From assembly GCF_003074135.1 (NCBI RefSeq), contig NZ_PPDK01000003.1, positions 124,001-188,000 of the forward strand: DNA of 64,000 nucleotides, in the 5' to 3' direction. The translations under genes and the position numbers were made by a program. The notes beneath the pieces were generated by a model that made no database searches, was not told where the DNA came from, and saw nothing but the letters and a program-made list of their open reading frames with translations. Shown here piece after piece: positions 7,897-50,299 of the stretch. The DNA is from Euzebya tangerina (GTDB lineage: Bacteria; Actinomycetota; Nitriliruptoria; Euzebyales; Euzebyaceae). Position 1 is the first letter of the stretch; every line of letters starts with the position of its first letter.

Positions 7897-9840
7897 ATGC
7901 GACAACTCGCGACCCTGGCAGTCCTCGTCCTTACCGCTCTTCTCGTTCCATCGACCGGAGCGGATGCGACCCACGGCGGCGAGAACGGACCGATCGTGCT
8001 GGACAGCACCGACGTGGGCGGCATCTCGGTCGCCCGGCTGGATGGGACGCTCACCGAGATCGTGGACCAGGAAGCCATCCACCTGGAGGTCTCGCCGGAT
8101 GGTCGGACGGCGCTGTTCGTCGGGACGGAGCCGCCGGACATCCAGCTGATCTCGTTGGCCGGGGGTCCGTCCACCACCGTGCTCCCCCGTGAGCGAGGTG
8201 GGCGCCCCGACGTGTCCTGGTCTCCCGATGGGTCCCGGTTCCTGGTGGCCGACGGTCAGACGGTCACGACCTACGACGCCGACGGGCTCGACCCGGATGT
8301 CGTGTACACCAACTCGATGGCCGGATCAGGCGGGCTGTACGACGCCGCTGTCTGGACCGCCGCGAACGAGATCATCGCGATCAACTCCTTCAGCGGCATC
8401 CGAATCGATCAGCCGACCCGCTCGGTGACGCCACTGAGCTACGACGGTCGGGAGTACCAGGTCGATGACCAGTTCGGCCTGGATTCCTCACCAGACGGTC
8501 AGTTGCTCACGGTCAGCTGTGCGGAGCTGACCGACCCGCCCTCCAGCGGCATCTGCATCTTCGACCGGGACCTGGGGCTGGTCCGATTCATCCCCCCGAC
8601 GATCGTGCCCGGCGCCACACGAGTGATGCAACCGGCCTGGAGCCCGGACGGGACACGACTCGCCTTCATCGCGCTGCTCCCCGATGAGGTTGCCCGGCTC
8701 TACACCGCAGCGGTGGGCGGAACGGATCTCCAACTGGTCGCGGATCTGCCGGCCGACGATCGCTTCCGTGGCAACTTCCCAGGCCTCTCCTCATGGGCGC
8801 CCGTCCCGGATAGCGCTCCGACACCGCTTCCGGAGCCACCGCCCCCACCGACCAACAACACCCTGGAGCCAGGCGGCTTCGACGGTGACCCCACCACGAC
8901 CGAACGGGCCGACTACACCGACCCCATCGGCTACGCAGCAGCCGTGTCACAAGCCCGCTTCGACGCGGGAGCCGCCGACTACGCGGTGGTCTCCCGCGAC
9001 GACGAGTTCGCCGACTCACTGGTCGGCACGGCTCTGACCGGCCAGGGCCCTCTGCTGTACACCGAGACCACCAGCCTGCCCACCATCACGCGTGCCGAGC
9101 TCGATCGCGCGGTGGGCTCCGGCGGCACCGTCTACCTCCTCGGCGGCATCAACGCCATCTCCCAAGCCGTCGAGGACGACCTGGCCCGGACCTTCACCGT
9201 CCAACGGCTCGCCGGCCCCTCACGCATCGAGACCTCCGTCGCCGTCGCCGAGGAGGTCATCGCCCTGACCGGCGACGACGTGAGCGACGTCGCCATCGCC
9301 CGAGCCTTCGGGGTCGAGGGCAACCCCACGGCGGCCTGGGCCGACTCGGTCTCGGTCGGCGCCTGGACCGCGGCCGAGCAGATCCCGACGGTGGTCACCC
9401 AGACCGACGGCGTGCACCCCGCCGTCCAGGCCTTCCTCACCGACACCACACCCGACCGCACCACCCTGCTCGGCGGCACCGCCGCCCTGTCAGCGGAGGT
9501 CGAGGCCGGCGTCCCCAACCCGAGGCGAGTGGCCGGCGACTCCCGCGACTCGACCGCAGCCGCCATCGCCACCGACCTGGTCGGCCAGACCCCCGACGAT
9601 GACGACCGCCAACTGGTCATCATCAACGGCTACCGGCCTGACGGCTGGCTCTTTGGATTACCAGCCGCCGGGCTGGCCGCCGACACCGGCGCCGCCATCG
9701 CCCTCGCCCAAGACCCGCTACCACCGGCGACAGCCACCCTGGCCTGCGACCCCGACACCGTCGACCTCCTCCTCGCCGGCCACCTCTCCATCATCGACCA
9801 AGCCGCCTCCGACTCCCTCGAAGCAACCCCCTCCTGCTGA
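7897..9840 (+). CDS. Secreted beta-propeller and CWB2 cell-wall-binding protein
   Basis: 647-residue exported protein. A signal peptide (about 1-26) precedes a TolB/WD40-like propeller (about 30-300) with repeated SPDG blades (LEVSPDGRTALF, DVSWSPDGSRF, LDSSPDGQLL, AWSPDGTRLAF). A Pro-rich linker leads to about three C-terminal cell-wall-binding-repeat-2 units (about 340-645), with the ADSVSVGAW and TLLGGTAALS patterns, which anchor surface proteins non-covalently. The ATG at 7897 follows AAGGAAGG; a GTG at 7888 overlaps that site. A paralogue of the same design is at 35738-37807. Confidence 0.88.
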   Translation: MRQLATLAVLVLTALLVPSTGADATHGGENGPIVLDSTDVGGISVARLDGTLTEIVDQEAIHLEVSPDGRTALFVGTEPPDIQLISLAGGPSTTVLPRERGGRPDVSWSPDGSRFLVADGQTVTTYDADGLDPDVVYTNSMAGSGGLYDAAVWTAANEIIAINSFSGIRIDQPTRSVTPLSYDGREYQVDDQFGLDSSPDGQLLTVSCAELTDPPSSGICIFDRDLGLVRFIPPTIVPGATRVMQPAWSPDGTRLAFIALLPDEVARLYTAAVGGTDLQLVADLPADDRFRGNFPGLSSWAPVPDSAPTPLPEPPPPPTNNTLEPGGFDGDPTTTERADYTDPIGYAAAVSQARFDAGAADYAVVSRDDEFADSLVGTALTGQGPLLYTETTSLPTITRAELDRAVGSGGTVYLLGGINAISQAVEDDLARTFTVQRLAGPSRIETSVAVAEEVIALTGDDVSDVAIARAFGVEGNPTAAWADSVSVGAWTAAEQIPTVVTQTDGVHPAVQAFLTDTTPDRTTLLGGTAALSAEVEAGVPNPRRVAGDSRDSTAAAIATDLVGQTPDDDDRQLVIINGYRPDGWLFGLPAAGLAADTGAAIALAQDPLPPATATLACDPDTVDLLLAGHLSIIDQAASDSLEATPSC

Positions 9841-46159: not shown

Positions 46160-47602
46160 ATGACCAACGCCCCGACACTGCCCGACGGGCTCGTCATAGT
46201 GGTCAAGGAGGAGTGCGAGACCTGCCAGACCGTGGTGGGTGTGCTCACTCGCCTGCAGGCTGAACTCGGGGCGAGCATCTACTCCCAGGACAACCCCGCC
46301 TTCCCGCCAGCAGCCGACGTCGTCCACGACGAGGACCTCTCGGTCAGCTGGCACCACGACATCGAGACGGTGCCCACCTTGATCCGGGTGTCTGACGGCC
46401 ATGAGGTCGAGCGCACCGTCGGCTGGGATCGCCAGGAGTGGCAGCGCATCAGCGGCGTCGAGGATCTTGGTGCCGAACTTCCGGCCATGCGGCCCGGGTG
46501 CGGCTCGATGTCCGTCGACCCCAGCCGCGTGGATGCGCTCCGGGCGCGGTTCTCCGGGTCACGCCTCGCAGCCCGCCGGATCGAGCTCGGATCGGCTGAG
46601 GATCCGATCGAGATGATGTTCTCACGCGGGTGGAGCGACGGTCTGCCGGTGGTGCCGCCCACCGAGGCCCGGGTGACGGCGATGCTGGAGGGCACAGCCC
46701 GCGATCCCGCCGAGATCGTCGCCACCGTCCCACCCGATCTGGTCGATGTAACCGTCGAGAAGGTGGCCATCGCCGCGGTGATGGCCGGCTGTCGGCCGGA
46801 GTACCTCCCCTGGGTGCTGACCGCGGTCGAGGCCACCTGCAACGACACCTTCAACATGCACGGACTCCTGGCCACGACGATGCCCGTCGGGCCGGTGATC
46901 ATCTGCAGCGGCCCCGGGACGCGTGCCATCGGCATGAACGCCGGAGGCAACGCGCTCGGGCAGGGCAACCGCGCCAACTCGACCATCGGTCGGGCCCTGC
47001 AACTGGTGGTGCGCAACGTCGGTGGAGGTCGTCCCGGGGAGGTGGACCGGTCGACCCACGGTGGACCGGGCAAGCTCTCGTTCTGCTTCGCCGAGAACGA
47101 CGGTGACAGTCCGTACGGCCGTCTTGCGGGGGAGCACGGAATCGACGACGGCGTCGATGCGGTGACCGTCTTCGCCGGTGAGGGGCCCCGCTGCGTGGTC
47201 GACCAGATCTCCCGGGAGCCGGACTCCCTGGCGCGGTCCCTCGCGGCTAGCCTGCAGGCCCTCCACCACCCCAAGCTCGTCATCGCCTTCGATGCCGTCC
47301 TGGTGATGGGGCCCGAGCACGCCAGGGTCTTCGCCGACGCCGGGATGGATCGAGAAGAGATCACCGACCTCATCACCTCCCACTGCACCCGACCGGGGTC
47401 GGAGCTCATCCGCGGGGCCGGCGGCATCGCCGAGGGGATCCCGGCGGAGATGGGTGAGATGGAGGCCATCCCGAAGTTCCGGCCCGGTGGATTGATGCTC
47501 GCGTACGCGGGTGGGGGCGCCGGTCTGTTCAGCGAGATCATCGGCGGCTGGGTGAACGGCGAGATGGGCTCGGAGCCGGTCACGCGGGCTGTGCAATACT
47601 GA
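46160..47602 (+). CDS. Thioredoxin-like/large partner of UGSC protein
   Basis: 480 residues. About 1-115 form a thioredoxin-like fold with a CETC redox pair (Cys19, Cys22) and a cis-Pro-like TVPTLIRV. A linker (about 116-145) leads to a large conserved domain (about 150-480) with WSDGLPVVPPT, VEATCNDTFNMHGLLATT, PGTRAIGMNAGGNALGQGN and CFAENDGDSPYG. I recognise these blocks from proteins encoded beside UGSC selenoproteins; no biochemical function is established to my knowledge. GGAGCC precedes the ATG. The UGSC gene starts 25 bases downstream. Confidence 0.82.
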   Translation: MTNAPTLPDGLVIVVKEECETCQTVVGVLTRLQAELGASIYSQDNPAFPPAADVVHDEDLSVSWHHDIETVPTLIRVSDGHEVERTVGWDRQEWQRISGVEDLGAELPAMRPGCGSMSVDPSRVDALRARFSGSRLAARRIELGSAEDPIEMMFSRGWSDGLPVVPPTEARVTAMLEGTARDPAEIVATVPPDLVDVTVEKVAIAAVMAGCRPEYLPWVLTAVEATCNDTFNMHGLLATTMPVGPVIICSGPGTRAIGMNAGGNALGQGNRANSTIGRALQLVVRNVGGGRPGEVDRSTHGGPGKLSFCFAENDGDSPYGRLAGEHGIDDGVDAVTVFAGEGPRCVVDQISREPDSLARSLAASLQALHHPKLVIAFDAVLVMGPEHARVFADAGMDREEITDLITSHCTRPGSELIRGAGGIAEGIPAEMGEMEAIPKFRPGGLMLAYAGGGAGLFSEIIGGWVNGEMGSEPVTRAVQY

Positions 47603-47627
47603 CCCTGTCCCCGACCCGGAGCTGGCC

Positions 47628-48152
47628 ATGCCGATCACGATCCTCGACCCGACCGGTGAGCAGCAGGTCGCTGAGCGGCAACCGCTGCCGCGACCCGCGT
47701 CGCTCGAGGGCAAGACCGTCGCCCTGCTCGACATCTCCAAGCCTCGTGGCGACGTGTTCCTGGACCGCATCGAGCAGCGGCTGGGCGAGCAGGGGGTCGC
47801 CGTCCGTCGCTACCGCAAGCCCACCTTCTCCAAGCCGGCACCACCGGACCTTCGGGCTGAGATCGCCGAGGAGTGCCATCTCGTCATCGAGGCGCTGGCT
47901 GATTGAGGCTCGTGCACGTCGTGCAGTGTGCATGACATCGCAGAGCTCGAGCTTCGAGGTCTCCCCGGCGTCTTCGTCGCGTCGGAGCAGTTCATCGAGG
48001 CCGCCGCGGCTCAGTCGACGTCGCTCGGCTTCCCGTCCGCCGCGCGGGTGTTCACCCCGCACCCGATCCAGGACCGGACGGATGAGGAGATGGTGGCCTA
48101 CGCGGACGACATCTTCGAGTCCGTCGTGGAGGCACTGACGGCCGACAGCTAG
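47628..48152 (+). CDS. UGSC family selenoprotein (in-frame TGA = selenocysteine)
   Basis: 174 residues when TGA 47904-47906 is read as selenocysteine (residue 93). The reading is AIEALAD before the TGA (with Leu-Val at its start) and then Gly-Ser-Cys-Thr-Ser-Cys-Ser-Val-His-Asp, i.e. the U-G-S-C motif that names the family, with a second Cys at 99. Both sides are strongly coding: DISKPRGDVFLDRIEQRLGE before, VFVASEQFIEAAA and VFTPHPIQDRTDEEM after, as in family members. GGAG lies before the ATG; there is none before the downstream half. Homologues with Cys at this site exist, supporting a redox or nucleophile role. Probable operon with the thioredoxin-like gene. Confidence 0.92.
47910..47942 (+). 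promoter_or_regulatory. Candidate bacterial SECIS element
   Basis: Two overlapping hairpins follow the UGA. Hairpin 1 (47910-47935) has an 8-bp stem TCGTGCAC/GTGCATGA with one G-U pair and a 10-base loop starting GTC, 11 bases from the UGA. Hairpin 2 (47922-47942) has arms TGCAGTGT/ACATCGCA with one mismatch and a G-first 5-base loop, 23 bases from the UGA. Spacing favours hairpin 2, stability hairpin 1. Only one can form at a time. Confidence 0.5.
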
Positions 48153-48163
48153 CCCTGCGGACT

Positions 48164-50299
48164 GTGGACAACCGGGCTGTGGTGACGCACCCGGCCGATA
48201 CGCTCCGCGTCACCGTGTCCGCGCACCCCTCCACTGCCGTGAGCCCAACCGTCCCCGACCACCTGCTCGCGCAGCTGAACCCCGAGCAGGCCCAGGCCGC
48301 CGCGCTTCCGACCGGGCCCGTTCGCATCCTGGCCGGTGCCGGGACCGGCAAGACGAGGACGATCACCCACCGGATCGCCGGGCAGATCGCCTCGGGGGCG
48401 TTCGAGGCGTCCCAGATCCTGGCCGTCACCTTCACCGAGCGCGCCGCCGCGGAGATGCGGACCCGGATCCTCCACCTGCTCGCCACCGACACCCCCGAGC
48501 GACCGCCCAGCGTCCGCGCACTCACCTTCCACGCCGCTGCCTGGGCGCAGGTCCGCCACTTCTGGCCGGACCTCGTGGCCGCAGAGGTGGTGACACCACC
48601 CGACCACGGCGGCCTGCCAGAGGTGCTGACCAGCAAGCTGCCCCTCCTCGGTCCCATCGCCCGGCGAATCGGTGTCGACGCCGCCGACCTGGCTGCCGAG
48701 GTGGAGTGGGCCGCGAGCGCCGACCTCGACCCCGCCGCCGTCGCCGCAGGTGACCGTGACGAGGTGCTGCCACCCGACACCCTGGCAAGCGTCATCGAGT
48801 CCTACACCGCAGAGAAGGCCCGTCGCGGCGCGATCGACTACGAGGACATGCTGCGACTGGCGCGGCGACTGACCGAGCTGCCCGACCCTGCCGCCACGAT
48901 CCGGGAGCGCTACCGCGCGTTCACCGTCGATGAGTTCCAAGACACCAACACCCTCCAGTGGCGACTGCTCCGCGCCTGGGTCGGCGACCGCGACGACGTC
49001 TGCGTCGTCGGCGACCCGGCCCAGACGATCTTCAGCTTCACCGGGGCGAACGCCGAGTTCCTCCGGCGCTTCCACCGCCACTTCCCCGGCACCCAGACCG
49101 TGGGCCTGGATCGCTCCTACCGCTCGACCCCGCAGATCCTCGAACTGTCCAACCGCGTGCTCGGCCGCCGGGCTCCGGATCTGCGGCCGACCATCTCAGA
49201 CGACGGTGCACCACGCCCGCTGATCGCCGAGCACGCCGACGAGGATGCCGAGATCGCCGCCGTGGTGTCTGCCATCACGACGCTGGCGGAATCGGGCGTC
49301 CCCTACCACGAGATGGCGATCTGCTACCGGATCAACGCCCAGGCCGCCGGCTGGGAGGACGCGCTTCGCAAGGCCGGTGTCCCGGTGACGGTCCGCGGCG
49401 AGGGGTCCTTCTACGACCGGCAGGAGGTGCGACGGGCGATCCGGGCGCTGACCCAGGCCGTGACCCAACCCCAGCCGGAGTCGGCCCCGCCGATCGCCGA
49501 CGGTCCGGTTGTCAACCCCAACGTCACCGCAGAGGTCGAGCGCGTCTTCGCGCAGGCGCTGTCCTGGCGGCCCGGGGTGCCGCCCAGCGGCCGTCGTCAG
49601 CGGGATCGCTGGGAGGCGATCGAGGCGGTCCGGGACGAGGCCGGCGACCTGGCGGACCGGGGGGCGGACCTGCCGACCATCGCCGCGGAGCTGTCCGGCC
49701 GTGTGGCCGCGGGGGTGGACCACACCGCCAACGCCGTGACGCTCATGTCCCTGCATCGGGCGAAGGGGACCGAGTTCGACGCCGTGTTCATCGTCGCCGC
49801 CGAGGAGGGCCTGCTGCCGATCAGCTACGCCGAGACCGATGAGGAGGTCGACGAGGAGCGGCGACTGCTGTACGTCGGGGTGACGCGTGCCAGGAGATGG
49901 CTGTCAATCACTTGGGCCGGCTCGCGTCCGTCGCGATCCGGGCGGCAGACCACACGGCGGCCCAGCCGATTCCTCTACGGGCTGGGTGAGGGTGCCCCCT
50001 CCCCCGGCCAGCGCCGAGGGAAGCCGGACTCCGGTCGGCGGAGCACCCGTGGGTCGCTGGACGACCTGCCCGACGGAGCAGATCCCGTGCTGGCCGAGAA
50101 GCTCCGCGGGTGGCGCCTCGAGCGGTCGCGGACCGACGATGTCCCCGCCTTCGTCGTGTTCAACGACGCCACCCTCATCGAGCTGGCAACGCATCGGCCG
50201 ATCGACCGTCGGGCGCTTCTGCGGATCCGCGGCATCGGGCCGGCCAAGGCCGACCGGTACGGCGCCGAGTTGTTGGCCGTGATCGCAGGCCGCTCCTAA
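48164..50299 (+). CDS. UvrD2-like DNA helicase with HRDC domain
   Basis: 711-residue SF1A helicase: Walker A AGAGTGKT, motif II VDEFQDTN, motif III VGDPAQTIFSFTGA, motif IV/V (DRSYRSTPQI; LMSLHRAKGTEFD) and motif VI VTRARRW. A C-terminal HRDC domain (about 635-705, LIELATHRPIDRRALLRIRGIG) follows. The layout matches mycobacterial UvrD2, but the RQC-like tetracysteine segment usual there is not evident. GTG 48164 or GTG 48182 start; DNA repair or replication restart. Confidence 0.92.
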   Translation: MDNRAVVTHPADTLRVTVSAHPSTAVSPTVPDHLLAQLNPEQAQAAALPTGPVRILAGAGTGKTRTITHRIAGQIASGAFEASQILAVTFTERAAAEMRTRILHLLATDTPERPPSVRALTFHAAAWAQVRHFWPDLVAAEVVTPPDHGGLPEVLTSKLPLLGPIARRIGVDAADLAAEVEWAASADLDPAAVAAGDRDEVLPPDTLASVIESYTAEKARRGAIDYEDMLRLARRLTELPDPAATIRERYRAFTVDEFQDTNTLQWRLLRAWVGDRDDVCVVGDPAQTIFSFTGANAEFLRRFHRHFPGTQTVGLDRSYRSTPQILELSNRVLGRRAPDLRPTISDDGAPRPLIAEHADEDAEIAAVVSAITTLAESGVPYHEMAICYRINAQAAGWEDALRKAGVPVTVRGEGSFYDRQEVRRAIRALTQAVTQPQPESAPPIADGPVVNPNVTAEVERVFAQALSWRPGVPPSGRRQRDRWEAIEAVRDEAGDLADRGADLPTIAAELSGRVAAGVDHTANAVTLMSLHRAKGTEFDAVFIVAAEEGLLPISYAETDEEVDEERRLLYVGVTRARRWLSITWAGSRPSRSGRQTTRRPSRFLYGLGEGAPSPGQRRGKPDSGRRSTRGSLDDLPDGADPVLAEKLRGWRLERSRTDDVPAFVVFNDATLIELATHRPIDRRALLRIRGIGPAKADRYGAELLAVIAGRS

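Follow-up and report, generated by a model that had tools for sequence, protein, structure and literature searches.

A predicted UGSC-family selenoprotein of Euzebya tangerina and its thioredoxin-bearing partner

The UGSC family and an interrupted reading frame

UGSC-containing proteins were placed in 2008 among the main selenoprotein families of ocean samples, with 255 selenocysteine (Sec) and 21 cysteine forms, and few selenoprotein families were commoner in surveys of ocean and fresh water (PMC2398784). The authors of 2008 assigned UGSC to the redox families and suggested a thioredoxin-like fold (PMC2398784). A listing of 2026 still gives the family as uncharacterised in function (PMC13188914). 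UAG-encoded selenoproteins, including some with the UGSC motif, are also known, together with a tRNA-Sec bearing the anticodon CUA (PMC5330540).

The stretch of E. tangerina DNA analysed here (the window) comprises 64,000 nucleotides and carries on its forward strand a frame (47628-48152) that runs from ATG to a terminal TAG (48150-48152) and would encode a protein of 174 amino acids with Sec at residue 93. A Shine-Dalgarno-like GGAG (47618-47621, forward strand) can be read 6 nt 5' of the start codon. The TGA of codon 93 (47904-47906) is the sole in-frame stop before the terminal TAG and is followed by 81 codons beginning G-S-C-T-S-C, yielding the motif U-G-S-C-T-S-C. A preliminary description had reported the start codon, the single TGA, the 81 further codons and the Gly-Ser-Cys that opens them, and re-reading of the sequence agreed on every point. 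Its expectation that gene callers would return a truncated product of 92 residues was borne out by the ORF listing, where the gene ends at the TGA (47628-47906); split in two by ordinary gene callers, the gene presents a clear annotation case. Directly 3' on the same strand lies a gene for a UvrD-type helicase with a C-terminal HRDC domain (48164-50299).

The joined translation was searched against family profiles, as the preliminary description had proposed. Both PF24696 (UGSC; 166.4 bits against a cut-off of 25, residues 4-171) and NF041046 ("UGSC family (seleno)protein"; 163.1 bits against 125) were matched over the full model and above their curated cut-offs. Positions 1-92 of PF24696 were matched by the first half of the protein and positions 94-171 by the second, the missing position being that of the TGA, and the U/C-G-S-C motif of the family is present at the Sec position. 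The claim that both halves belong to one conserved protein is therefore upheld: each matches its own half of the UGSC models and homologues align across both, rather than to one half only, an outcome that had been named in advance as evidence against recoding. Judged by its sequence, the window gene adds a member to the known UGSC family, and no difference at the protein level was found between it and the family described by PF24696 and NF041046, with which it shares a full-length match, the U-G-S-C motif and a UGA-encoded Sec. The thioredoxin-plus-core partner encoded beside it is absent from these family models. A sequence search of the PDB returned no credible relative of UGSC, no Rfam family was matched in the window at the gathering thresholds, and PADLOC matched neither UGSC nor the partner.

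Comparison with four homologues gave dN values of 0.20-0.40 5' of the TGA and 0.25-0.49 3' of it, with dS of 0.61-1.03. Both halves of the gene are under purifying selection of similar degree. A frame interrupted by TGA in this manner is far beyond chance, since the joined frame matches one family over its full length and the position of the stop is conserved.

Reading of the UGA codon

The selenocysteine machinery, whose absence from the genome the preliminary description had counted as contrary evidence, was found in full. The genome encodes a tRNA-Sec (65.9 bits, gathering threshold 47) with the anticodon UCA as assigned by ARAGORN, and selA (426 bits), selB (323 bits for the whole frame) and selD (380 bits) were each matched above the family cut-off. 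Across the order, selA was matched in all eight genomes with UGSC, and all seven genomes lacking selA also lacked UGSC, an association that is weak alone (one-sided p about 0.08). The genes selA and selB lie beside or near UGSC in nine and ten loci respectively, accompanied in three (L071, L085 and L086) by tRNA-Sec.

A single in-frame TGA was present in 13 of 13 UGSC matches in the order, and occupied the same column in all 12 that were aligned. A further 80 loci were collected from public genomes using the neighbouring partner gene as query instead of UGSC, and this sample is hence unbiased towards TGA. Readable UGSC copies in these loci (n = 76) comprised 74 with TGA, two with TAG and none with cysteine, so that a stop codon stands at the same position in 76 of 76 copies from several phyla. 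The TAG copies belong to Geodermatophilus obscurus and Blastococcus massiliensis, each of which has in its genome a tRNA-Sec with the anticodon CUA. TAG replaces TGA in the UGSC genes of loci L060, L088, L115 and L116, and the CUA tRNA-Sec is labelled tRNA-Pyl by ARAGORN. The UAG-encoded selenoproteins described from Blastococcus and its relatives include UGSC-motif proteins (PMC5330540), with the codon at the same position in L060 and L088; those proteins use TAG with tRNA-Sec(CUA), whereas the window uses TGA with tRNA-Sec(UCA). Among 396 sampled genomes of the phylum, 40 UGSC matches were found, 34 with one TGA and six without a stop. Five of the latter were read and all had a cysteine codon at the Sec position. 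The partner gene lies nearby in four of these five natural Cys forms (L139-L143), L143 stopping at a contig edge.

Bacterial SECIS (bSECIS) hairpins are expected to have a loop of 3-9 nt with G in one of its first two positions, a stem of 4-16 bp, a distance of 16-37 nt from the UGA and a minimum free energy of at most -7.5 kcal/mol (PMC13188914). The window contains such a hairpin on the forward strand at 47918-47936, in which an 8-bp stem (47918-47925 with 47929-47936) encloses the loop GUG (47926-47928), 19 nt from the UGA, with a folding energy of -11.6 kcal/mol for a 30-nt piece. Not every RNA segment taken in isolation has this hairpin as its one best fold: a segment of 36 nt folds otherwise. 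For comparison between loci the stem was defined as bases 14-21 and 25-32 from the TGA (counted from 0), around a GUN loop. The GU of the loop was retained in 89 of 89 stop-bearing copies, with a mean of 7.53 of the 8 stem pairs. When codons were exchanged 1000 times among synonyms according to the codon usage of each locus, the GU loop survived in a mean of 9.4 copies (maximum 19) and the mean number of stem pairs was 4.81 (maximum 5.26). Serine at position 100 was encoded by AGT in all 74 copies having serine there, a codon that accounts for 5% of serine codons in the partner genes of the same loci; where position 100 was cysteine or glycine, the codons were TGT (12/12) and GGT (3/3). In the five natural Cys forms only 1-5 of the 8 stem pairs were left and the GT loop was found in one of five. 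The loss of the hairpin from these forms indicates that it follows the stop codon and not the protein.

If the TGA were a true stop, the gene would be a pseudogene, a frozen truncation or the product of a sequencing error. Standard ORF calling does end at 47906 and the upstream partner gene itself terminates with TGA, but a stop shared by every readable copy, purifying selection 3' of it, a conserved hairpin and a complete Sec machinery render this exceedingly improbable. A reading of TGA as tryptophan or cysteine, through an altered genetic code or simple read-through, would accommodate the natural Cys forms at the same position and is scarcely more credible. The TGA stop of the partner gene (47600-47602) is situated 25 nt 5' of the UGSC start, so that TGA also terminates translation normally in the immediate vicinity of UGSC; moreover, the hairpin is confined to copies with a stop codon, TAG occurs together with a CUA tRNA-Sec, and the genome possesses tRNA-Sec(UCA), selA, selB and selD. 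In the preliminary description recoding had been inferred from the frame and the motif. It no longer depends on these alone, because of the conserved hairpin, the joint exchange of TGA and UCA for TAG and CUA, the Cys forms devoid of a hairpin and the occurrence of selA and selB beside UGSC in some loci. Taken together, these comparisons of sequence indicate that UGA at codon 93 is very probably read as selenocysteine and that the window gene encodes a genuine UGSC selenoprotein. SelB and Sec-tRNA(UCA) would decode the codon under the direction of the hairpin, which starts 11 nt downstream.

The genome contains a second UGSC module (L146; G000:C1:1651015-1651485), 35% identical, with TGA and the motif UGACTAC. 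It has its own partner gene, the match to which covers the core only. Elsewhere, locus L050 holds a second UGSC copy (9068-9400) that matches model positions 61-173 only.

Modelled fold and probable relationship to GrdB

A structural model of UGSC (pLDDT 91) consists of a single domain of five alternating beta-alpha units forming a sandwich, with Sec93 starting the third helix within a U-x-x-C-x-x-C motif. The modelled five-(beta-alpha) arrangement appears to be distinct from the thioredoxin-like fold proposed in 2008. Searches with this model using Foldseek and VIA ranked receiver and flavodoxin-like chains highly in a diffuse manner and returned no single specific relative.

In remote sequence comparison, the model for glycine reductase selenoprotein B (GrdB; TIGR01917) was matched by 48 of 57 diverse UGSC members with a best E value of 8.2e-6, a broader GrdB/PrdB model by 30 of the 57 and GrdH by 19. 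In a profile alignment of UGSC with twelve Sec proteins of GrdB type from the phylum, Sec fell over Sec (P 9.6e-5; HHalign probability 58%, 61 columns). Sec is likewise aligned with Sec between UGSC and the component B proteins GrdB, GrdF, GrdH and PrdB of glycine, sarcosine, betaine and D-proline reductase. Proteins of the GrdB type share with UGSC the pattern UxxCxxC, including its second cysteine (U+6), the next helix and an LE-x-x-G-(I/L)-P stretch. There are also differences: GrdB is a protein of 430 amino acids whereas UGSC is one domain of 174, the GrdB-like proteins of the phylum mostly carry UGTGTRC and, unlike UGSC, lack the middle cysteine, and against the full TIGR01917 model the window protein scored 11 bits (cut-off 602), with only the Sec segment matching. 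These data suggest that the Sec segment of UGSC is probably a distant homologue of that of GrdB, which is not to say that UGSC belongs to the GrdB family. No match to grdB was found in the genome.

Full-length GrdB-like proteins with one TGA, in the motif UGTGTRC or a close variant, were found in 15 of 396 genomes of the phylum (L123-L134 and others). Two short GrdB-like matches carry a TAG (G084:C4:2074215) and two TGA codons (G144:C19:14630) respectively. Weak matches to DUF116 were found in 16 of the 57 UGSC members.

The partner gene and a proposed function

The gene directly 5' of UGSC, on the same strand (46160-47602), encodes a partner protein of 480 amino acids. In a model of the partner (pLDDT 94), residues 3-100 (approximately 46160-46460) adopt a thioredoxin fold (Z 8.9, 85 residues, 2.6 A) in which CETC (residues 19-22) and VPT (residues 71-73) correspond to the conserved CxxC and VP. 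This domain shares with thioredoxin and DsbE-like proteins the fold and CxTC, and has the VPT loop as in thioredoxin; unlike those proteins it is fused to a large core (46604-47599) that contains the sequence GWSDGLP and an invariant Cys211 and matched no family in Pfam or NCBIfam. Sequence searches of the PDB with the partner gave weak thioredoxin matches only. For the core, Foldseek gave only weak matches (probability 0.25-0.47) to Toblerone-fold proteins (barbiturase, cyanuric acid hydrolase) and to fumarase-like ones, and these carry no weight here.

Each of the 13 UGSC copies in the order has a partner homologue next to it, in one case fused. In L033 (1-1488) one continuous frame encodes UGSC at the N-terminal side of the partner core, and this one natural fusion supports a joint function of the two. 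The Unknown_1 domain of the UGSC/Unknown_1 fusion reported in 2008 (PMC2398784) may be the same partner core. Among the 80 partner loci, UGSC is present in 76, mostly directly downstream of the partner; it lies 3.9 kb away in L045 and is divergent in L058, L063 and L068. No UGSC was visible in L041, L054, L057 and L102, in L054 and L057 at least because the contig ends. CxxC is present in the N-terminal part of the partner in 75 of the 80 loci, and some partners, the most distant members, have no thioredoxin domain. Beyond selA and selB, the neighbouring genes met repeatedly (among them those for SufB, a DNA glycosylase and MaoC) are each shared by small groups of loci only and offer no functional clue.

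UGSC probably works together with its thioredoxin-bearing partner. The most likely function of the pair, proposed tentatively, is that of a selenium-dependent reductase recharged by the thioredoxin domain of the partner. Sec93 would attack a substrate that UGSC binds together with the partner core, the latter contributing the substrate site; Cys96 or Cys99 would resolve the intermediate as a selenenyl sulfide with Sec93, and the thioredoxin domain would reduce the selenenyl sulfide again. In this respect the pair would resemble the Sec domain of GrdB, which binds the substrate in glycine reductase. Since some pairs are not adjacent and some partners have no thioredoxin domain, such a relay may not be universal.

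UGSC might instead be a peroxidase or a thiol-disulfide detoxification enzyme and not a bond-breaking reductase of the GrdB kind. UxxC and a partner with a thioredoxin domain are typical of redox selenoproteins, in keeping with the grouping of 2008 (PMC2398784), but the modelled five-(beta-alpha) sandwich appears to be neither a thioredoxin nor a peroxiredoxin fold, GrdB gives the best remote match by sequence, and the large conserved core of the partner suggests a specific substrate; this alternative is considered unlikely, though a serious one. Binding or detoxification of a metal or metalloid such as Hg or As through U-x-x-C-x-x-C is more doubtful by some distance. Three chalcogen ligands are available together with the conserved His102 and His145, and metal binding is thought likely for some selenoproteins (PMC13188914); against this, Cys99 is lost in several UGSC forms, and the six recurring neighbour families that were annotated included none recognised as a metal-resistance gene.

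A selenium-dependent reductase remains the preferred reading. More tentatively still, UGSC and the thioredoxin-plus-core protein may constitute a widespread two-component reductase of this kind, distinct from glycine and proline reductase, built on the same ancestral Sec domain and acting on a small molecule by breaking one of its bonds. The weight of the finding lies with the partner and the link to GrdB rather than with the TGA: a near-constant partner, a fusion seen once and a likely relationship to the Sec domain of GrdB together provide a testable hypothesis for an orphan enzyme.
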